Below are positions 375-14,249 of a DNA stretch of 57,657 bases, one piece after another. Within the stretch, counting starts at the first letter, position 1; each line of letters starts with the position of its first letter. This DNA is from a virus. Location of the stretch: positions 1 through 57,657 of the IMG/VR virus record IMGVR_UViG_3300042392_002002; one strand, 5' to 3'. The notes under the pieces are model-generated. The model saw only the letters and a list, made by a program, of their open reading frames with translations. It did no database searches and was not told where the DNA came from. A program made the translations under genes and the position numbers.

Positions 375-704
375 TTAATCTAAGGTTTCCCACCATTCTG
401 TTATTCTATCTTTGAAATGTTTTTTTACATTTGAAAACTCTTCATCATACCACGACCCTTTTATTGTTGGATACATTAAATGTGATACTGAATCTAATAA
501 TAATTCCACAACTTCCTTTGTAAAAAAATGTAATTTGTAATCGTCATTTAATATAGGTCGATATCTATAATATTTTTTTGTTGCTAGTTTTAATGCGTGA
601 CCAAAAGACTCCTCTAACTTATCCATAGGAACTCTTCTAAGGAACCTTGGACTAAGTCCCGACTCTTCCCTTAATATTCTTCTTATGTTCTCTTGTAGGT
701 TCAT
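375..704 (-). CDS. Small protein with capsid-targeting-like leader
   Basis: 109 residues. The first 14 residues, MNLQENIRRILREE, form the leader shared by many genes here: a short basic amphipathic helix ending in Leu-Arg-Glu, then Glu. In T4-type phages such a leader sends proteins into the prohead and is removed after (L/I)-x-E. The remaining ~95 residues (basic around KLATKKYYRYRP, acidic and Trp-rich at the C-terminus) match no family I recognise. The ATG overlaps the stop of the upstream gene as ATGA, so the two are probably co-translated. Its first 34 bases (671-704) are identical to those of the metallopeptidase gene starting at 3404. Packaged head protein is inferred. Confidence 0.75.
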   Translation of the reverse strand: MNLQENIRRILREESGLSPRFLRRVPMDKLEESFGHALKLATKKYYRYRPILNDDYKLHFFTKEVVELLLDSVSHLMYPTIKGSWYDEEFSNVKKHFKDRITEWWETLD

Positions 705-1848: not shown

Positions 1849-2766
1849 TCATATAAACATTATATTAGTGGCCTTACAACCAAACTTTTCATTTATTAAA
1901 GCTAGTAACTCAATTTTCCAATTACCTTTACGTCCCAAGTAATCCTCAATTTCTTCGGCAAACACTTCGTAAAATATTATAAAATTAAAGTTTGGGTTTT
2001 TAACATCAGGCATTTCATAACATACTTCAGGTAACTCACCCATTACTTCTTTAAAGTATTTACCATTATCGTCATAGTTATTACCATCAACCAATTTGAA
2101 TAAATAATCATCATAATTATTTTTTGGAAGAACAAACCCAACAGCATATGGGTCACAACAAACACCCATTCCACAATTATATTGAGCCCAATCATAATAG
2201 ATATCATCAAATCCATCAAACAACATATTAAGTAAATTGTTTAGAATGGGTTTAATGTTGGTTTCTTCCCTTAATATTCTTCTTATGGATTCTTTTAAGT
2301 TTTTTGGTTTTAATTTTTTAACTATTCTATCTATTTTTGGATCTATATCATTTATAATATCATTCACAACATTAAATGCTTCTCTTGCGGCTAGTTTTCC
2401 ACTGTCTTTGTTTTCATAATTAAACACAACATTATACACTCCTTTTTGTCCTTTAACTCCTCTTGTTCTTCCCCATCCTGTATTCATTCCGGCAAGTGTT
2501 TGTAATTCCAATGCCACATGTTCTATAATGTGTCCCATCCATGTTCCATCTTTAATTCTTTTAAGAAACCCTCCTGGTTTTCCTTCAGAACATCTGTGAC
2601 TTTTTAATGATGGTAAATATTCTTTTATTCTTTCGTAAAATCCTTCTATTTTATCTGATGGTTTTTCTTCAAATTCACCCAAATCTAAAATCATATGAAT
2701 AAGCTTATCTTTGGACTCACTCCATTTGTTTTTTCCATTGATAACATTGATTGATTTTATTTTCAT
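1849..2766 (-). CDS. Cyanophycin-synthetase N-terminal domain fused to an internal leader and a small C-terminal domain
   Basis: 305 residues. Residues 1 to ~145 closely resemble the N-terminal domain of cyanophycin synthetase CphA: MKIKSINVINGKNKWS, DLGEFEEKPSDKIEGFYERI, HRCSEGKPGGF (57-67), GTWMGHIIEHVALELQTLAG (74-93), KGVYNVVFNYE. The ATP-grasp and Mur-ligase domains of real CphA are absent. In some CphA enzymes this domain is reported to have a metallopeptidase-like hydrolytic site, and HIIEH (79-83) is kept here. KNLKESIRRILREE (155-168) then repeats the packaging leader internally, with Leu-Arg-Glu at 165-167, followed by ~137 residues containing CGMGVCCDPYAVGF. Cleavage after Glu167 would release a separate C-terminal protein. 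A fusion made by recombination between leader copies is likely, since an orphan leader lies just upstream at 2772-2807. Confidence 0.75.
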   Translation of the reverse strand: MKIKSINVINGKNKWSESKDKLIHMILDLGEFEEKPSDKIEGFYERIKEYLPSLKSHRCSEGKPGGFLKRIKDGTWMGHIIEHVALELQTLAGMNTGWGRTRGVKGQKGVYNVVFNYENKDSGKLAAREAFNVVNDIINDIDPKIDRIVKKLKPKNLKESIRRILREETNIKPILNNLLNMLFDGFDDIYYDWAQYNCGMGVCCDPYAVGFVLPKNNYDDYLFKLVDGNNYDDNGKYFKEVMGELPEVCYEMPDVKNPNFNFIIFYEVFAEEIEDYLGRKGNWKIELLALINEKFGCKATNIMFI

Positions 2767-2807: not shown

Positions 2808-3404
2808 CTATATATTATTTTTAACCATATTATAAAAGAACTCACTGATCTTATCAGGAGTTGTTATGTTCTGTTGTTTTAATTGTGATCTGTAAAACCC
2901 TACCATTGCAACTATTTGTGAGATAGGAACATTTTTATATAATGAAGGAGGAATAAACCCTTTATCTAACAATCCTTGTTTTTGAAGTTGTTTAATTTTT
3001 TTTCCTGCAAACTCATCTGCAACTTCTTCAGTATGTTTCATTAGTTTTGCTGCTTCCTCAACACTTATATCACCAAGATAACACTCATACATTATATCTT
3101 CACCATACTTTTTAAACTGATACTGATGTGCGGTCTCGTGAAATATAATAAACAATAGGTATTCTAACCTTTGGTTTAACGCAATTTTATTTATTAACAC
3201 ACCATCATGTAAAGCAACTCCCATAGCCGGCATCTTAAAATTGGCAAATTCTATTTTTTTGCAGTTTGATTGTGAAATAAAGTCTTTTACCTTTTCTATT
3301 AACTCATCAGACATTTCATGTCTTGATGTAATAACATCTATTAAGGCGTTAACGCCATCAGTTTCCTCCTTTAATATTCTTCTTATGTTCTCTTGTAGGT
3401 TCAT
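2808..3404 (-). CDS. Leader-bearing HExxH zinc metallopeptidase-like protein
   Basis: 198 residues. The leader MNLQENIRRILKEE (1-14) ends in Leu-Lys-Glu. After a short N-terminal region come LLFIIFHETAHQYQFKKYG with the zinc motif HETAH (89-93), and HTEEVADEFAGKK (about 124-136), where a Glu three to eight residues before the FAG could be the third ligand as in gluzincins. The length suits a minimal single-domain peptidase. A protease carried in the head and injected, or one acting on head proteins during maturation, are both possible. The 34 bases that encode the leader (3371-3404) are identical to 671-704. A degenerate box (ATAATTAT) precedes the ATG. Confidence 0.75.
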   Translation of the reverse strand: MNLQENIRRILKEETDGVNALIDVITSRHEMSDELIEKVKDFISQSNCKKIEFANFKMPAMGVALHDGVLINKIALNQRLEYLLFIIFHETAHQYQFKKYGEDIMYECYLGDISVEEAAKLMKHTEEVADEFAGKKIKQLQKQGLLDKGFIPPSLYKNVPISQIVAMVGFYRSQLKQQNITTPDKISEFFYNMVKNNI

Positions 3405-3450: not shown

Positions 3451-6400
3451 TTATCTATTCCAATCACCATTTTTAATTGTTTCCATCATCCAAGAAATAA
3501 TAGTTAATAACTCATCATTAGTTAGGTTGTTAATAGTTGTTATGTATTGGTCGTTTTGTTCAGTATGTCCATACTCGTCTTGATCAAATTCCAATATCTC
3601 AACAGCAATTTGGTCGCTGTCTTGAACCGTTATATCGTCAACATATTTGTTATCACTTAATTGGATTTCATATCCACTAAGTGTTCCACTATTATCTCCC
3701 CATTTATTACCATGTTTTAAAACAAAATCCCTGATATATTGTTTTAATACTTCTTTAGGGTTATCCATGTTTTTTAAAACCGAACTAATTTGACTAATGT
3801 CTAATCCAGACATTTCTATAAAATTATATAACCCTTCCTTTTCTATTGTCTTTAATAAGGATTGTTTTTTATTTTCTGATTCATTTATATTACGACCAAA
3901 AAAAGTGTCGTATTTATCTTTAATCTTATTATGAAAATGATTTGAAAGGAATTTATAAATCTCATCATACGGGTAATCATTTTCTCCGTAATTAGTTAAA
4001 TCATTGTAATAATTATCTATAAAATAATTTATGGCATGATCTTCAAAGGTTTCAAAATTAAAACCCACACCATTATTATATTTATCTAAATAAACATCGG
4101 TAATAATATTTAAATTCTCAAAGAACTCTTTTTCCATTAAACTCGTATCAACCCTTCTAAGAAAGAATGTAGATTCATTCATGGGTTTCCATTCGCAATT
4201 TGGTTTTGATATGGATCCAACATATATATTATCTATTGGCAAATAATCTTTAATTGTGTTTTTAACATCATTTCTTAAATTTATTGTATATTCAGCTCTT
4301 TGAAGAAAACTAGAAAATTTATCATTTAGTTCTTCCGTTCCAAATACCAAATAAATAATATAAAAATCGTCTTCGGATGTTACTCTAATTTCGCAAACAC
4401 AATCTTCTTCTTCTTTAAATGGTTCTATAAGATTTTTAATTATATTAACATACTTTGGTTGTTTTTCTTCAGATTCATTTATAACATTTCCTTCATTATC
4501 GTATTTTAGTTTAATGGCATCTAAACGAAAATCTGCATCAGTGTTATACTGAATATTGTGCCAATACGGAATAAGTTTAATACCTGTATATTCATATATT
4601 TTATCTTGTATTTGTTCAGCAAAATAAGTCTCTTCATTACCAGCATATTCATCGTTATCAAAATAAACTCTTATCATTGGTTTATTTTCATATTTTTTAA
4701 TATCAATAAAACTAACATCATCAAAAAACTCATGAATCATTTTTGTAACCAACTTAAGTTTTTTGTCTTCAGATTTGTCAACTGATTCCATTATTCCCCC
4801 ATCTTTACCTGAACCTTCATAGATAAGTTTGATTGCCTCTTTAGGTATGTCTTGAAAGGTTACTATATGTTTTTTACTTGATTCGTAGTGTCTATCCTTA
4901 TACCATTTGATTTCGGGCATCATTGTTGTATCAATTTCCCAAACATCATCATCATAAGTAGAATCAAACCACGATCTCTTATTTGTTGAGTTGGTTGCAA
5001 ATATTGCAGGTTTACATTTTGTTCCATATCCTGCATATATTTTATAACATTCACCAGCACGAACTTTTAATCCTTGTTCTATAATCTTGTCTCTGAACTT
5101 AGGATTAGATTTATGTATAACAATTTCGTTTGGAATTATTTCTTTACCAGCAGGGCTATAATTTTCATTAAGTTCTTCCTCATATCTTTCAGTATCTATG
5201 TAAAAATCAGGGTCCTTTTTTAATTCTGTTCGTTTCTTGTAGTCATACCAAGGAACAACATTTAAATTGGTATAATCATTTATAGTATCACATATTTCTG
5301 AACTCTCTAACTCTTCTTGTGTATCATAGTAAACCATAATCTCATTTCTTTTGGCGATGTATTCTAAATCTATAATATTATCAAACATGGTATATATAAT
5401 ATCTTTAACCAACTTAAGTTTATTATTTTCAGATTTGCCAATTGATTCTCTAAGATAAATGTTTTCTTGTTCATCACATTTGGGCGTTGTTTCCATAGTA
5501 ACGCCAACTGGAATATTAATGTAATCGTAAATAGTATTCCAAATTTCATCTAAAACATCACTATACATTTTTTGAATTCCTTGTGTGGTAGGCCAAAGTT
5601 TTGTTCCATACCCACCAATAAAAGTAACATTAACTACAGGTTCATTAAAAACCTCATCATTTTTTACATCATAACCACAAATGATATGTTTATATTCAGG
5701 AAAAATAATGTTGTCCATAATTTTTTCTATGATCTTGTTTCTTTTCTCATCACTTTTATCTATACTTTCGTTCATAAACTCAACCTCATCCTCACAATTA
5801 TCAACATGCCATGGTGAAAATACATAAGGTCTGAGACCCATAGCTTTTATTGATTCTTCCACAAAATTTAATTCATTAACAATTTCGTCATGATCAAAAT
5901 GTCTTTTTATTGACTTGGATCTGATTTCATAATCCTTATCAACAGGATTATATTCTACCCATATATCACAAAGTCCTTCCCAACTAATTTGAGATAACAA
6001 TATCTTAATTGTTCTTAAATTTTTTTGAATTTCTTTAGTGTTATCTACCTCCTCTTTAATAATATTATCATATCCTAACGTTTCTACTATTTCCCGAATA
6101 TCAGACAGATCATAACTGCGACTTAAATCGGTTGTATTTTTTTGTGCAGTTTTCCCATTTATTTCCCCTAACTGAACATAGGTTTTATGCATTCTAGGTT
6201 CATCACTATTAAGTTTAAGAACTCTTACCGAACTTTCATCATTAAAAGAATCATATAAAAAATCTTTAAATTTATAATTCTCATCTTTAGTTAATTTATT
6301 TTCATTATAAATAATATTAACTATTGGCCAACTATTAGTCATCCATATATTCCACCCTGCACCAATAATTTTAAATGGCAAATCAATTGATGGATCGTCT

Positions 6401-6624
6401 CCATCCGTTGTCCAAGACACTTTAACTAACCCTTTTTGGTTTTCAATTCTTTCAACCATTTCGGGGTTATCTTTTAGTATCTTCTTTAGGTTGTCTAATC
6501 CCCCAACTAATTCAGCAATAGAATACAACCCCTCATCTTCAATTTGTTTAATTAGTTTTGATTTGGTGTCACGAGTTTCCTCTTTTAAGATATGTCTAAT
6601 TAAATCTTTATTCACCATCATCAT
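3451..6624 (-). CDS. Giant polyprotein of capsid-internal proteins with repeated cleavage-like sites
   Basis: 1057 residues. It begins with a leader (DLIRHILKEE, Leu-Lys-Glu at 13-15). (I/L/M)-x-Glu followed by Ser, Glu or Asn recurs at Glu191, 286, 393, 487, 613, 717, 817 and 915, giving nine segments mostly 94-126 residues long. Several segments begin alike (ESIDKSDEKR, ESIGKSENNK, ESVDKSEDKK, ESENKKQS) and share a helix, then beta strands, then an IYxYT-like helix, so they are tandem homologues. Residues 16-191 carry the EGLYSIAELVGGLDNLKKIL module also found in the gene at 46731; 916-1057 carry a second version. Segment 488-613 (IVIHKSNPKFRDKIIEQGL, then AIFATNSTN) looks ADP-ribosyltransferase-like. 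I infer a precursor cut by the prohead protease into many small packaged proteins. Three adjacent ATGs (6624, 6621, 6618) are possible starts. Last gene of the leader operon. Confidence 0.8.
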   Translation of the reverse strand: MMMVNKDLIRHILKEETRDTKSKLIKQIEDEGLYSIAELVGGLDNLKKILKDNPEMVERIENQKGLVKVSWTTDGDDPSIDLPFKIIGAGWNIWMTNSWPIVNIIYNENKLTKDENYKFKDFLYDSFNDESSVRVLKLNSDEPRMHKTYVQLGEINGKTAQKNTTDLSRSYDLSDIREIVETLGYDNIIKEEVDNTKEIQKNLRTIKILLSQISWEGLCDIWVEYNPVDKDYEIRSKSIKRHFDHDEIVNELNFVEESIKAMGLRPYVFSPWHVDNCEDEVEFMNESIDKSDEKRNKIIEKIMDNIIFPEYKHIICGYDVKNDEVFNEPVVNVTFIGGYGTKLWPTTQGIQKMYSDVLDEIWNTIYDYINIPVGVTMETTPKCDEQENIYLRESIGKSENNKLKLVKDIIYTMFDNIIDLEYIAKRNEIMVYYDTQEELESSEICDTINDYTNLNVVPWYDYKKRTELKKDPDFYIDTERYEEELNENYSPAGKEIIPNEIVIHKSNPKFRDKIIEQGLKVRAGECYKIYAGYGTKCKPAIFATNSTNKRSWFDSTYDDDVWEIDTTMMPEIKWYKDRHYESSKKHIVTFQDIPKEAIKLIYEGSGKDGGIMESVDKSEDKKLKLVTKMIHEFFDDVSFIDIKKYENKPMIRVYFDNDEYAGNEETYFAEQIQDKIYEYTGIKLIPYWHNIQYNTDADFRLDAIKLKYDNEGNVINESEEKQPKYVNIIKNLIEPFKEEEDCVCEIRVTSEDDFYIIYLVFGTEELNDKFSSFLQRAEYTINLRNDVKNTIKDYLPIDNIYVGSISKPNCEWKPMNESTFFLRRVDTSLMEKEFFENLNIITDVYLDKYNNGVGFNFETFEDHAINYFIDNYYNDLTNYGENDYPYDEIYKFLSNHFHNKIKDKYDTFFGRNINESENKKQSLLKTIEKEGLYNFIEMSGLDISQISSVLKNMDNPKEVLKQYIRDFVLKHGNKWGDNSGTLSGYEIQLSDNKYVDDITVQDSDQIAVEILEFDQDEYGHTEQNDQYITTINNLTNDELLTIISWMMETIKNGDWNR

Positions 6625-7042: not shown

Positions 7043-7365
7043 TACATTACTTGGGATAAAAACTTTTTAATTGTTCTAATAACTTTTTGTCTATATGGAT
7101 TGTTTTCATTTGAAAAATTATCAATTGGTTCTGTAACATTATTATCTTCTAACATATTTAAAATCAATCTTACTTGTCTTTTTTTATTATCAAAAGTTCC
7201 AATATTATAATAATCATCATCTACTTTGAAATGAATCCTTTTAAGTCTAATATTGTCGTCAATATTTATTTCTTTAACTTCATATCTTCGCACAAGAAAA
7301 TTCATAACCTTTTGGTCAATTTCTTCTGTTTCTTCTTTCAATATGTATCTAATTAGTCCTCTCAT
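7042..7365 (-). CDS. Leader-bearing small protein
   Basis: 107 residues. Leader MRGLIRYILKEE (1-12), then a compact charged domain (NFLVRRYEVKEINIDDNIRLKR ending the first strands, then FKVDDDYYNIGTFDNKKRQVRLILNML) resembling a small alpha/beta unit. The start is a TAATG overlap with the upstream gene and the stop overlaps the next start in the same way. Third gene of the five-gene leader operon. No family match by eye; packaged role inferred from the leader. Confidence 0.72.
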   Translation of the reverse strand: MRGLIRYILKEETEEIDQKVMNFLVRRYEVKEINIDDNIRLKRIHFKVDDDYYNIGTFDNKKRQVRLILNMLEDNNVTEPIDNFSNENNPYRQKVIRTIKKFLSQVM

Positions 7366-7817
7366 TAAACAAAAATAAAATCATCAACTTTTAATGCTTT
7401 ATAGTTAGTCCTTGAAGAACCATACGTATCCTTTTCTTCTAACTTTAATTCTTCAGGTATATATTCATACATTTCAAATACATATTCACTTAATTTTTGA
7501 GACTCTATATATGGGTCAAAATTGTCTTCATATTTAAATGGAGTAAGGACATATGCCACTTGTCTGTTTTTAATATATTCAAGGCTATACGTCATTTTAG
7601 GTTTTAAACCATAGAACTCTTTTACTTTTTCATATTCAACAACCAAATCAATATAAATGCTTGTTATATATTCATCATAATTGTCATGTAATTTCCAACC
7701 AACAACAAATGGAAATTCTTTTTTTAATCCGTTAATAACAATATCAATACCCTTATCTATTTGTTGTTTAGATACTTCTTCTTTTAATATGTGTTTAATA
7801 AGTTTTCTCATTACCAT
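7365..7817 (-). CDS. Leader-bearing small protein
   Basis: 150 residues (148 if the second ATG at 7811 is used, which forms a TAATG overlap with the upstream stop and may be preferred). Leader MRKLIKHILKEE, then ~130 residues with a helix (QQIDKGIDIVINGLKKEF) followed by strands (YITSIYIDLVVEYEKV) and a C-terminal helix plus strand, the same order as the repeated unit of the polyprotein. Function unknown; likely a free-standing relative of those units. Confidence 0.72.
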   Translation of the reverse strand: MVMRKLIKHILKEEVSKQQIDKGIDIVINGLKKEFPFVVGWKLHDNYDEYITSIYIDLVVEYEKVKEFYGLKPKMTYSLEYIKNRQVAYVLTPFKYEDNFDPYIESQKLSEYVFEMYEYIPEELKLEEKDTYGSSRTNYKALKVDDFIFV

Positions 7818-8458
7818 CTACTTCCTCTTACTCTATCCACTTCTGAGCTACGCAGTTTATCTGTATATAATTTTTCCAACCATTCACGTTCATCTACAAT
7901 TCTTTTTTCTAACTCATCTCTTCTAAATAAAGTATTTTTGACAATAAAATCAATCATTTCATCATCTGTAACCCCTTCAGGTTTTGAAACAGGAGGAACG
8001 CAAACTTGAGACTTTTTAGGGTGTTCAGAAAAATCATCTATTGATATATCATTTCTTCCCAATGCACTTTTGATTTTTTCTAACAATGTATCTTCAAACC
8101 ATTCTTCTACAATATATCTTAAATAGTTTCTTCTTACCGGTATATCAGTTTCTAAATCATCTATAATATCTTCAGGTATTGAAAATTCTCCTGATTCAAA
8201 ATTTCGTTCACTTGTTTTTCTTTTGTCATCCCAAGCATCGTGATCATGGTTAAAATCTATAATAGCTTGAGCTATTTCCATACCATTATTACACCATTCA
8301 AAAGTATAGCTAAACGCATAGTCCTTTGTTTGATACATTTTAGATCCTGAAAAATAGTTATTTAACCAATTATATATTAGTTTTTCAACGTTTGGTGTTG
8401 GTTTTGGGTATTTCTTATTTACCTCCTCTTTTAATATTTTTCTAATTAGGTGTTTCAT
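7811..8458 (-). CDS. Leader-bearing protein, first gene of the leader operon
   Basis: 215 residues. Leader MKHLIRKILKEE (1-12). The body is charged and mostly helical: KLIYNWLNNYFSGSK, AQAIIDFNHDHDAWDD, NYLRYIVEEWFEDTLLEKI and a basic-acidic C-terminal helix (RRDELEKRIVDEREWLEKLY). HDHD could bind metal but fits no family I know. Preceded by GTATTTAT 6 nt before the ATG and by a terminator for the genes further upstream, so this is where the operon 8458-3451 is transcribed from. Confidence 0.75.
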   Translation of the reverse strand: MKHLIRKILKEEVNKKYPKPTPNVEKLIYNWLNNYFSGSKMYQTKDYAFSYTFEWCNNGMEIAQAIIDFNHDHDAWDDKRKTSERNFESGEFSIPEDIIDDLETDIPVRRNYLRYIVEEWFEDTLLEKIKSALGRNDISIDDFSEHPKKSQVCVPPVSKPEGVTDDEMIDFIVKNTLFRRDELEKRIVDEREWLEKLYTDKLRSSEVDRVRGSRW

Positions 8459-9326: not shown

Positions 9327-9803
9327 TTACCTGTTGTATGGCCTAAACCTTGCTGGGTTTGCCTTTATTGCCGACTTTGGGAATCTTAACCCAACCCCCT
9401 GTTGTCTTGCGTTTTTAAGTGTTCTTGCGTATTCATCAAGTTCTTGTTCAATACCACCAATTATATTTAATGTTTTAATGTTTGTTGAACTTTTAATCAT
9501 TTCAGGAGCAACTCCCTCTTTGTTTGCCTCTTCCCATCTTTTTGCACATAAACACCATTTGTCACCAGGTTCCAACATATCAAGATTGTTCCCCATTGAA
9601 TTGGTAAACTCTAAAAACTCTTCTGTTACTTTTGCGCACACCGTATGACTTCCTGTGTCATTATTTCCTGTTCTACAATACCCATCCTTGTAAAACCCTG
9701 TCATTGGATTTCTTGAACATGGTTTTAATTTCTCACCATAAAGATTCTTATCTTCATTAAATTCTTCTCTTAATATTCTTCTTATAGATTCTTGTAGGTT
9801 CAT
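9327..9803 (-). CDS. DUF2237 protein with packaging leader
   Basis: 158 residues. Leader MNLQESIRRILREE (1-14, Leu-Arg-Glu at 11-13), then a typical DUF2237 domain: KLKPCSRNPMTGFYKDGYCR, GSHTVCAKVTEEFLEF, PGDKWCLCAKRWEEA, GVAPEM. DUF2237 is a small Cys-rich bacterial domain of unknown function, with conserved cysteines all present here. The C-terminus (YARTLKNARQQGVGLRFPK) is a basic extension. A cellular domain joined to the phage leader illustrates the plug-in nature of the leader. CTATTTAT lies 4 nt before the ATG, and two further genes follow with 1-nt spacing. Confidence 0.88.
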   Translation of the reverse strand: MNLQESIRRILREEFNEDKNLYGEKLKPCSRNPMTGFYKDGYCRTGNNDTGSHTVCAKVTEEFLEFTNSMGNNLDMLEPGDKWCLCAKRWEEANKEGVAPEMIKSSTNIKTLNIIGGIEQELDEYARTLKNARQQGVGLRFPKSAIKANPARFRPYNR

Positions 9804-10538: not shown

Positions 10539-11251
10539 TAACCTTTGTCGTTTGTAAAGTATTCTTTGTTATTTTTGTTGAAAAATGATGATAACATAAG
10601 TCTTAACATATACATCACACCTTTGTTTTCAAATCTTCTTGGTGGTGTATATACAATATTGTTTATTCTTCCGAATTTCTTTGGTTTAATTTGTTTTGAA
10701 AGCATATAATCTTCAGCAACTTTAATCTCTTCATCAAAACCTCCGATTGACTTAAACGTTTCTGAACGAACTAACATATATCCACCAAGGCAGAATGGTG
10801 TTGACCACTTGGAGAGTGTCTGTATTAAATCAAATACCTTATACACGTAATTATAATTCCCATTATCAGAACGAAACTTTGTTGTTACTAGATCTAAATT
10901 GTGTTTTTTTATCTTTATTACCGATCTTATTAATACCTTTGGGTCTAATAAGAATACATCAGCATCCATAAACAACACATATGGTGTTGTAACAAGTTTG
11001 AATCCGTTGTTTCTTGCTATTGCTGGAAGTCCACCATCCATTACTCGTAAGACAAACAGGTCGGTTCTATTCACATACTCTAACCTTGTAATTAGATCTA
11101 ATTTTGTTATCCCATCATTTGATGCGTCACATACAACAACTTTTACGTTATGTATATCAACTTGATAGTTTAATAGGTCCAACGTTTTTAATATAATATC
11201 CTTTTCGTTTTTACAAGGTATTACAATCGTTACAAGATTTGATAACTCCAT
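10529..11251 (-). CDS. Family 2 glycosyltransferase
   Basis: 240 residues, GT-A fold. LVTIVIPCKNEKDIILKTL at the N-terminus is the nucleotide-sugar binding strand and loop; LPAIARNNGFKL and VLFMDADVF (D-x-D metal site near residue 95) follow, then GGYMLVRSETFKSIGGFDE and VAEDYMLSKQIK (the catalytic-base ED region). A complete single-domain GT2 enzyme transferring a sugar to lipid, glycan or protein; acceptor unknown. Directly upstream of the LpxH-like gene with a 10-nt overlap, suggesting a shared surface-glycan job. Confidence 0.88.
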   Translation of the reverse strand: MELSNLVTIVIPCKNEKDIILKTLDLLNYQVDIHNVKVVVCDASNDGITKLDLITRLEYVNRTDLFVLRVMDGGLPAIARNNGFKLVTTPYVLFMDADVFLLDPKVLIRSVIKIKKHNLDLVTTKFRSDNGNYNYVYKVFDLIQTLSKWSTPFCLGGYMLVRSETFKSIGGFDEEIKVAEDYMLSKQIKPKKFGRINNIVYTPPRRFENKGVMYMLRLMLSSFFNKNNKEYFTNDKGYWK

Positions 11252-11432: not shown

Positions 11433-14249
11433 TTAAGCCGTTTTCATCCCATCAGGATTTTTAATGGCCTCTATTACTTTACTTTGGTTTAATCCAGTGT
11501 CTAATCTTGATTGACAGGCAACATCAATTAATTCTTTGTCGGATTTTCCGTCTTTTACCGCGGCTTCTAATTTTCTTCCGAATTTTTGAAAGAATCCGGG
11601 ACCATTCCAACTTGCGTATGACATATGCACTAATAATCCTTTATTTCCCATAATTTTTTCTTTGGTCTTAGAGTCTTTAATATAACTACTCATGTTTTTA
11701 TTAAAGTATTTTTCCATAATTTCAGTTGCAAGATCTTCTAATTTTTCTTTTTTATCTCCACCTCTATATAACCATTTCCATTTTTTACAAAAGTTACCCA
11801 TGTTTGTCCATTTCATGTTTTTACCTTCACCACTAGATGTGGCTCCAGCTGCGATTTTTTCATCGTCTATAATCTTAAAAAATTCTTTTCCTTTATCAGT
11901 GCTTTCAATATTACCATTATACCTATCCAAACCAAACATAGTCTCAGTTGATTTACCCATACGGCTAGTTGGGTGCGGGCAAAATGGATTCCAATATCCT
12001 CCTTCAAAATTTGCAATTACTTTTTTTGTTATTGTTTTAAAATCGGAATCTGTGGTGGTTGTATTATTACTTGTTGTGTCACCACTTGTTGTATTATTGC
12101 TTGTTGTATCACTACTTTTTGTGTTTGTTTTGTTTTTGAATAATTTTTCTTTAATTTTGGATAAAATACCTTTTATACCAAATAAATCATTTTCTGATGA
12201 GTTTGTTGTTAAAGATGTATTAGTGTTATCAACATTTAAACCATCTTTAGTTGGGTGAGGTGGATATTTATTTGGGTCTGTATATTTGAAAAAGTATTGG
12301 TGAATTTTATTACCAGATGGATTTACAAAATGGTCTTTTCCGTCAAAAGTGATTGGTGTTATGTCTTGATATCCTTTTGAACTTAATTGTTGTTTTAAAG
12401 GACCTACTTGATCTAAAGCTCGTTTTTCTGAACTACCACCAGTAGATCCTCTTGTTGAAATTCCCATGTATGCTTTACCATCAGTACTAGGACCAATAGT
12501 TGCGCTCCACGTTACCGTAGAGTTTTTAGAATCTACATTTAACTTTAAATCAGTTATGTCAGGGTTAATTCCATCATCATAAAGTTTTTTTAGTTTCTCC
12601 TCAATTTGGGTTCCAATAAGAGCCCCTTGTTTGTCAGATTTTCGTCTTTCAAACGCATGAAGTAAATCAGCATCTCCTGGTATTGGTGATTTCCAAGTAG
12701 CCCCAAATGTTTCTTCTTTTATTAACATTTTTTTTATATTTTTGTAATTAATCTGATTTGGAATTAAATCTTTTTTTCTAATTAAGTTGTAATTTTCATT
12801 AACATTATTAGTTTCTTTAATTTTTTCTTTAAGAATTCTTGCAAATTCATTTTGTATCATTTTAGTAAATTTAACATATGGAGAGTCATCAGATTCAGAA
12901 TTATATTTATATTTACCTTCAGGTGGTCGTTTAGATCTACCTAAATAAGACAATCCTGAAATATTGGTAATACATTTATGTCCACCACTATTTGATTTAA
13001 TTAAATCCCAAGCGTTTACACTAATTGAGTCCAACATTTTCATTTCGTTTTGTGTCAATTCACTAAATGGTTTTTTCATTACAACATCAATATCATTTAA
13101 TATTTTTTCACCATTATCCATTCTTTTAAATTCTTTTCCATACAAAGCATTAAAGTCTTTAAATGTAAAACCAACAGATTCTTCATTAAAACTTTTTCCT
13201 GATTCAGATATCCATTTAATTGTGGACAAAGGAATGTCTTTATTTTGTAATTGTGATTTCCACTTGTTTAAGACCTCATCTTTAATTTCACCTAAGTTCA
13301 CACCTTTAAGTGCTCTTTCTTTCTTAAATGGATTACAAGACGCTTGTACCAACCCTAAGGGCCAAGCAATCACCAAGAAGTCAGCGTCAGGATTATTTCT
13401 GAATGGTGTGTATCTATCATATGATCCTGGTTTCATCATACTACCTCCACCATATTGAACTATTATCCCATCATCAACTTTAACATTCTTATTTATCTTC
13501 ATTGATTGGACATACATCTCTTTATTTTTTTCTAATGTGTCCACATCAGCATATCCACTATCTTTAATTTGAGATTTAATATACATTAAAATACTTAATA
13601 GTGATGGATTTGCATTCATTACGATATTTTCTAAAAATTTTGGTTTGTTTTTAAATGCTAATAATAATTTATTGGTTACCATTCCCATAACCATTTTGTT
13701 TTTTTGTAATGATTGATCTTTATCTACCTTAAACAAATAATTCATTACCTCTTCGGGTGTTATATCGTATTGTGCGTAGTTTGCTGAATCAACAGTAGAA
13801 ATTAAAGTTATATCGTCTGATGGAAAAATGTCGTTTGGTGATACGGTTTGAGATATTGTCTCAACGTTTGATCTTGACGCTTTAAAATTGGTTGATGTTC
13901 CTTGTTCTACACCAGCTTGCGTATCGTGATGGTCAGTATGTATAACAAACATTGGTTTACCGTGAGCAAAGTCAACTAACACCGGCATAACATCACCTTC
14001 GGCGTCTAATTTTTTAATTGCAAATTCCTTATCACCATATTGGATAATTTCAGAGTCAACCACTTTAATTCCATTTTGTTCTAAGTAGTTTTTCATACCT
14101 AAAGCAGTTGTCACTCCATCCAAATCCTGATGAAAATATATTTTTGCCTTAGGATATCGTTTAGATAATTCTTTTATGTTTCTAATACCAGACTCAAAAA
14201 TTAATTTTTTTGATTCTTCTGTTAATATTTGTATTACAAGATCTTTCAT
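11433..14249 (-). CDS. Leader + DHH phosphoesterase + middle domain + lysozyme-like domain
   Basis: 938 residues. The leader MKDLVIQILTEE ends in Leu-Thr-Glu at 9-11. Residues ~33-480 carry a DHH-family phosphoesterase pattern: FHQDLDG (39-45), Asp92 in LVDFAHG, TDHHD (105-109) and Asp154, the four metal sites typical of RecJ/NrnA-like nucleases and phosphodiesterases. NIKKMLIKEE (~504-513) is a second leader-like site, Ile-Lys-Glu at 510-512. An unidentified domain follows to ~665, then a Ser/Thr/Asn linker with repeats of DTTSNNTTS (~670-743). The C-terminal ~195 residues start NFEGGYWNPF and contain RMGKSTETMFGLDR and SYASWNGPGFFQKFG, which I read as a lysozyme-like muramidase with the Glu of FEGG as candidate acid. 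Cleavage at the two sites would separate leader, DHH part and the middle/lysozyme part. Confidence 0.78.
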   Translation of the reverse strand: MKDLVIQILTEESKKLIFESGIRNIKELSKRYPKAKIYFHQDLDGVTTALGMKNYLEQNGIKVVDSEIIQYGDKEFAIKKLDAEGDVMPVLVDFAHGKPMFVIHTDHHDTQAGVEQGTSTNFKASRSNVETISQTVSPNDIFPSDDITLISTVDSANYAQYDITPEEVMNYLFKVDKDQSLQKNKMVMGMVTNKLLLAFKNKPKFLENIVMNANPSLLSILMYIKSQIKDSGYADVDTLEKNKEMYVQSMKINKNVKVDDGIIVQYGGGSMMKPGSYDRYTPFRNNPDADFLVIAWPLGLVQASCNPFKKERALKGVNLGEIKDEVLNKWKSQLQNKDIPLSTIKWISESGKSFNEESVGFTFKDFNALYGKEFKRMDNGEKILNDIDVVMKKPFSELTQNEMKMLDSISVNAWDLIKSNSGGHKCITNISGLSYLGRSKRPPEGKYKYNSESDDSPYVKFTKMIQNEFARILKEKIKETNNVNENYNLIRKKDLIPNQINYKNIKKMLIKEETFGATWKSPIPGDADLLHAFERRKSDKQGALIGTQIEEKLKKLYDDGINPDITDLKLNVDSKNSTVTWSATIGPSTDGKAYMGISTRGSTGGSSEKRALDQVGPLKQQLSSKGYQDITPITFDGKDHFVNPSGNKIHQYFFKYTDPNKYPPHPTKDGLNVDNTNTSLTTNSSENDLFGIKGILSKIKEKLFKNKTNTKSSDTTSNNTTSGDTTSNNTTTTDSDFKTITKKVIANFEGGYWNPFCPHPTSRMGKSTETMFGLDRYNGNIESTDKGKEFFKIIDDEKIAAGATSSGEGKNMKWTNMGNFCKKWKWLYRGGDKKEKLEDLATEIMEKYFNKNMSSYIKDSKTKEKIMGNKGLLVHMSYASWNGPGFFQKFGRKLEAAVKDGKSDKELIDVACQSRLDTGLNQSKVIEAIKNPDGMKTA

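Follow-up and report, generated by a model that had tools for sequence, protein, structure and literature searches.

A candidate head polyprotein with a single leader and nine payload modules from an apparent T4-type jumbo phage

In phage T4, the prohead protease gp21 strips N-terminal propeptides from the internal proteins and from Alt, which is also cut near its C-terminus (PMC5694885). IPI-IPIII and Alt each have one gene and one short leader ending in hydrophobic-x-Glu, whereas gp22, gp67 and gp68 contain many cut sites that serve disposal. The heads of SPN3US and phiKZ, matured by an S80 prohead protease, likewise eject many proteins whose propeptides carry several cleavage sites, but the cuts fall inside the removed N-terminal propeptides and those reported leave one mature protein for each gene (PMC10052503, PMC5694885). 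The polyvalent proteins described by Iyer in 2017 are multidomain, presumed to be injected along with the genome, mosaics of reshuffled domains including ADP-ribosyltransferases (ARTs), and have already been likened to polyproteins; their splitting was proposed to be the work of embedded peptidases, a domain frequent but not universal among them (PMC5512222).

Here we analyzed a whole IMG/VR entry of 57,657 bp (the window), which appears to derive from a T4-type jumbo phage, and in particular its ORF 3451-6624, a minus-strand frame of 1057 aa with an ATG start. We consider it likely that this ORF is a polyprotein of virion payload domains, targeted to the capsid and cut by the prohead protease. 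It resembles the T4 internal proteins in its leader with an [IL]xE end, in belonging to a variable accessory set, in containing an ART-like candidate payload, and in the S77 protease and gp23-like capsid protein encoded by its relatives; it differs in placing nine modules and eight internal candidate sites (cut marked by a slash below) behind one leader. Unlike in polyvalent proteins, the sites match a prohead protease acting in trans, the module families have no significant Pfam match, and six of the nine modules occur elsewhere in a solo leader form or directly behind a leader. No peptidase domain was detected in the chain by Pfam and PHROGs scans, which may miss a remote one. The polyproteins of eukaryotic RNA viruses offer an operational analogy only, as one chain with a repeated motif giving separate products; their proteins and protease are unrelated, and here a payload chain would be cut at head maturation. 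The first-pass annotation of this DNA knew of no comparable phage head polyprotein. In the literature surveyed (preprints and most subscription journals lay outside its scope) we likewise found no tandem payload polyprotein cut by a prohead protease, but polyvalent proteins (PMC5512222) and the multiply cut T4 gp22, gp67 and gp68 are near precedents.

The tandem ORF and its candidate cleavage motif

The nine modules S1-S9 measure 176, 95, 107, 94, 126, 104, 100, 98 and 142 aa (Table 1). An assembly artefact was ruled out because the same ORF (100% identity) is present in a second assembly, L002, and similar tandem proteins occur in relatives from other samples. The ORF lies within a same-strand run of genes with short leaders, e.g. 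MNLQENIRRILRE/E and MKELIRHILKE/E. The whole chain had no significant match in Pfam or PHROGs, and neither the full-length protein nor S5 had a match in a search of cultured phages. Genome contigs scanned with S5 for a clue to the host gave nothing beyond two 15-residue chance matches.

Table 1. Features of the tandem ORF and related leader genes (window coordinates unless a locus is named)
Feature	Position	Strand	Remarks
Tandem ORF (candidate polyprotein)	3451..6624	-	leader + nine modules S1-S9
N-terminal leader MMMVNKDLIRHILKE/E	6580..6624	-	capsid-targeting-like propeptide, predicted cut after Glu15; leader class common to neighbouring genes and 175 leader ORFs in fetched loci
Module S1	6052..6579	-	aa 16-191, end IKE/E
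Module S2	5767..6051	-	aa 192-286, end MNE/S, alpha-beta-beta-alpha-beta
Module S3	5446..5766	-	aa 287-393, end LRE/S
Module S4	5164..5445	-	aa 394-487, end LNE/N, S6 paralogue
Module S5	4786..5163	-	aa 488-613, end IME/S, KptA/ART-like predicted fold
Module S6	4474..4785	-	aa 614-717, end INE/S
Module S7	4174..4473	-	aa 718-817, end MNE/S
Module S8	3880..4173	-	aa 818-915, all-alpha FLRR type, end INE/S
Module S9	3454..3879	-	aa 916-1057, final module, without terminal motif, N-terminus related to S1
Solo leader+S8-type gene, MNLQENIRRILRE/ESG...	375..704	-	22.6% identity to S8, E 2e-5; HMM
Solo leader gene	2808..3404	-	its module is the last in an L006 tandem protein, after internal leader SIRKVLKE/ETDGVN
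Internal full leader NLKESIRRILREE	2263..2301	-	in ORF 1849-2766; Cyanophycin_syn-type domain on one side, L006-type module on the other
Solo leader+S1 gene	L065 4523-5065		
Solo leader+S3 genes	L073, L078, L079		
S4 directly behind leader	L066, L065		
Solo leader+S5 genes	L073-L076, L078-L081, L069, L070		
S6 directly behind leader MTLQESIKKILRE/	L006 11052-12122		

The first-pass annotation had listed nine cleavage-like sites, quoted the starts of several segments and noted a full leader on the first segment alone, all of which proved correct: the strict motif [ILM]xE/[SEN] follows Glu15, 191, 286, 393, 487, 613, 717, 817 and 915 and occurs nowhere else in the 1057 aa. Sequence shuffling gave an expected motif count of 4.65 +/- 2.07. 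Because 4.1% of shuffles reached nine or more (p about 0.04), the count alone is weak, unconvincing evidence; it was dropped as sole proof, and position was therefore taken as the test. Among nonredundant internal junctions in relatives, 69 of 70 carried [ILMV]xE/[SENDGAT] in the interval from -12 to +8 around the projected start of the module; for windows inside modules the share was 7.7-8.1%. The lone exception reads WRE/S. Since the segment HMMs had been seeded at the proposed cuts, the test was redone with the edges of whole-protein BLAST alignments, which use no pre-cut segments. These edges lay within 10 aa of the nine sites in 68% of cases; the corresponding shares were 17% with positions drawn at random and 27% with randomly drawn [ILMV]xE sites, and the observed value was reached in 0 of 2000 draws, although the figures and p-values of both tests overstate independence because junctions share descent.

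The junction consensus has L/I/M at P3, mostly N at P2, E at P1 and S at P1' (54/69), with S1/S2 (IKE/E) and S4/S5 (LNE/N) departing from the [IL]NE/S core. In 77 orthologous junction pairs, P1 Glu was identical in 100% (computed over the motif-bearing junctions only, 69/70), and the remaining columns in 42-84%. Within modules the strict motif is depleted (16 observed, 32 expected), and by a strict end test it closes 0 of the 30 modules that form a natural C-terminus; S7, where it is the final module (L047, L065 and L071), lacks the motif. A looser count over the last 10 aa (16/38) was discarded, as it caught intradomain IVE and MME. Judged from these sequences, the pattern at the joins fits a site retained for use better than a relic.

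Module folds, shuffling and solo forms

An AlphaFold2 model of the whole chain reached a mean pLDDT of 62 and a pTM of 0.24. In this model, all eight internal sites fall in linkers with pLDDT below 50 (p about 0.001 by circular shift of the site pattern), to which thin alignment at the joins may contribute. The first-pass annotation had also taken several segments to be homologous and had proposed structure prediction for a shared fold. A single fold for all segments was rejected: the chain is predicted to hold at least four fold classes, one of them ART-like. S2, S3, S4, S6 and S7 have a common predicted helix-strand-strand-helix-strand topology, S8 is predicted to be all helical, and S5 differs from both. 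Homology is clear for S4 and S6 (33-38% identity), weak for S3 against S4/S6 (hhalign E 6.5e-5, mostly at the N-terminus) and N-terminal for S1 and S9 (E 2e-5); S2 and S7 gave no profile match to S3/S4/S6 and share the topology alone. Full-chain Foldseek matches to PrgH, YscD, BON and KH proteins (tandem alpha-beta-beta-alpha-beta) were set aside as topology only, with low TM-scores on a low-pTM model.

S5 modelled alone gave a pLDDT of 76, and the model matched KptA/Tpt1 in the PDB (for KptA, Foldseek E 1.7e-4, probability 1.00, TM 0.54) and phage KptA homologues in BFVD. The KptA/Tpt1 RNA 2'-phosphotransferases are members of the ADP-ribosyltransferase superfamily. At the sequence level S5 gave no match; its alignment contains invariant H17-x-S19, R24 and G31-L32 (alignment positions, not KptA positions). 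By its predicted structure, S5 looks like an ADP-ribosyltransferase-like module. T4 Alt is a packaged ADP-ribosyltransferase, and such enzymes are frequent in polyvalent proteins (PMC5512222, PMC9503650).

Related viral contigs (six from a first scan, more from scans with S5, S3 and S6) carry the same segments reordered, duplicated, missing or as separate leader genes, with breaks at the nine Glu sites. In L006, one gene consists of leader+S6+S7+S9 and another of leader+S4+S5+S3 with an internal leader next and, behind it, the module that window ORF 2808-3404 carries, while positions 7172-8233 encode a tandem S1-S1. The orders X+S8+S4+S5+S6+Y, X+S5+S6+S3+S6+S7 and X+S5+S3+S6+S7 were found in L004, L005 and L007, respectively. 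An HMM survey recovered 23 proteins with at least two modules, 11 of them with at least five, and 20 different ordered neighbour pairs.

Modules S1, S3, S5 and S8 exist elsewhere as leader plus single-module genes, and S4 and S6 as first modules directly behind the leader in some relatives; no solo form of S2 or S9 was seen among the relatives surveyed. In solo S5 genes the leader MNLQENIHRIKEVMGLSE/ leads straight into the module and the gene stops at the module end. About 15 families were found both behind an N-terminal leader and within a longer chain (by single linkage, one family being a composite of several modules). All 175 leader ORFs, retrieved with a pattern built from examples, have L, I or V at P3. 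Full leaders also occur internally, as DDLQESIRKVLRE/EDYSPAGKE in L058, KLQESIRRILRE/DEYSPAGKE in L068 and NLKESIRRILRE/ETNIK at the join of window ORF 1849-2766, while at most joins the leader is reduced to its last residues. The chains of L047 and L071 and the N-terminal part of window ORF 1849-2766 have no obvious N-terminal leader. One solo S5 gene (L070 5956-6396, plus strand) ends in the stub of a further leader (TLQESIRSY, then stop) and has the appearance of a broken fusion. Many small proteins of these phages that are unrelated in other respects begin with a second, longer class of leader (MKRIIRLTERDLTRIVRRVIKE/; L002 16081-18390; G005 228792-232121 and 252722-254080).

Prohead protease of relatives and the proposed processing

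Neither the window nor its 80-kb copy contains head genes, and the protease is thus known from relatives. On the 292-kb contig that includes L006 we found genes for a gp21-type Peptidase_S77 protease (G005 154799-155509) and for a gp23-like capsid protein, and both are also present in six further related records (seven in total); five others, all fragments, gave no match. The capsid propeptide of these relatives ends in LINE/A or LLNE/S, and this [IL]NE/[AS] is the form of most polyprotein joins. In 6/6 protease sequences of the relatives the otherwise variable N-terminus has a conserved [IVL]xE motif, always in the same place; this would fit self-cleavage, a suggestion also made for T4 gp21 (PMC9958956). 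Judged by the capsid protein (40% identity), Flavobacterium phage immuto is one of the closest cultured relatives; the 70 kb of it that we examined held no obvious leaders of this type. Adjoining the capsid gene of G005, a Glu-rich low-complexity protein (152871-154421, minus strand), in which MYEEDDE repeats occur along with several [IL]xE sites, is likely a scaffold or core protein.

The idea of one precursor cut at the listed Glu sites, already put forward in the first-pass annotation, is supported by the module borders, shuffling, solo genes and internal leaders, and also by the absence of the motif where modules form natural C-termini, the matching capsid propeptide motif in S77-bearing relatives and the low-confidence linkers at the eight internal sites; packaging, cleavage, delivery and function in the host we infer as follows. 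The 15-residue amphipathic N-terminal leader would act as a capsid-targeting sequence of the T4 kind and bring the whole chain into the prohead core, where an active T4-type S77 prohead protease would cleave each [ILM]xE/[SEN] behind its Glu, which takes off the leader and opens the eight internal sites to release nine folded proteins of about 94-176 aa. The modules would remain in the head, leave with the DNA at ejection and act in the host. The chain probably arose by in-frame fusion of adjacent leader+module genes, the downstream leader first lying whole inside the chain and later eroding to the last few residues that form the cleavage site, and these sites are where modules are reshuffled. 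The full proposal, that T4-type jumbo phages have a one-leader head polyprotein with nine payloads freed by the maturation protease, and that its cleavage site also serves as the joint at which a shuffling library of effector modules, solo and tandem, recombines, is one we favor with somewhat less assurance than the assignment of the ORF itself.

That the chain instead stays uncut and works as one long polyvalent-type protein, its motifs being relics of old leaders, appears unlikely. The history of fusion is evident, full leaders are found internally, and among polyvalent proteins the virion RNA polymerase of N4 is packaged without being processed (PMC5512222). However, at most joins the leader helix has eroded while its last residues were kept; P1 is Glu without exception, and P3 is I, L or M throughout. 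Moreover, the motif that recurs in the capsid propeptide of S77-bearing relatives is depleted within modules and missing at natural C-termini, and any packaged chain would meet the S77 protease.

We give very little credence to a core or scaffold protein that is cut up to clear the head for DNA: gp21 does reduce the T4 core proteins gp22, gp67 and gp68 to small peptides (PMC9958956), but here the sites are confined to the stretches between folded modules and stay out of the modules themselves, the modules occur alone with leaders, the module set varies among relatives, unlike an essential scaffold, and the separate Glu-rich core candidate adjoins the capsid gene. Equally improbable is a leader that serves as some other targeting or assembly peptide on a chain processed by another phage or host protease. 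The leader types do differ from the T4 sequence; against this, chain and capsid propeptide have the same cleavage motif, which suits the specificity of an S77 protease, and the T4 internal proteins are built with a short N-terminal propeptide, 10-20 residues long, that the prohead protease takes off (PMC5694885).

If processing by the prohead protease holds, a tailed phage applies the logic of viral polyproteins to injected proteins, one tag loading an equimolar payload set, and payload evolution by fusion and by shuffling at cleavage sites is tied to the specificity of the capsid protease. Because each [ILM]xE/S joint marks a border, payload modules are easy to find, and the motif offers a route to listing candidate effectors of uncultivated jumbo phages. 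The natural design could also guide the packaging of multi-protein cargo in T4-type capsids.

Several other genes on the minus strand of the window have related features. ORF 1849-2766 has a Cyanophycin_syn-like N-terminal domain (PF18921, E 1.7e-44), preceded by no leader and joined through the internal full leader to a module that L006 encodes as a leader gene of its own (10600-11055). The 938-aa ORF 11433-14249, with leader MKDLVIQILTE/E, a weak DHH-like domain in its N-terminal part (E 5.5e-4) and an internal leader-like NIKKMLIKE/ETFG at aa 504, is probably a second two-part precursor. The leader gene at 701-1222 (LYHKTSTETGIKII...SAISLTRE) resembles an ADP-ribosyltransferase-type pattern by eye and has no Pfam or PHROG match. 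The gene at 9327-9803 encodes a DUF2237 protein (PF09996, E 2.5e-38) behind a leader; the family is a conserved bacterial one, and its member here appears to be a head-targeted payload.
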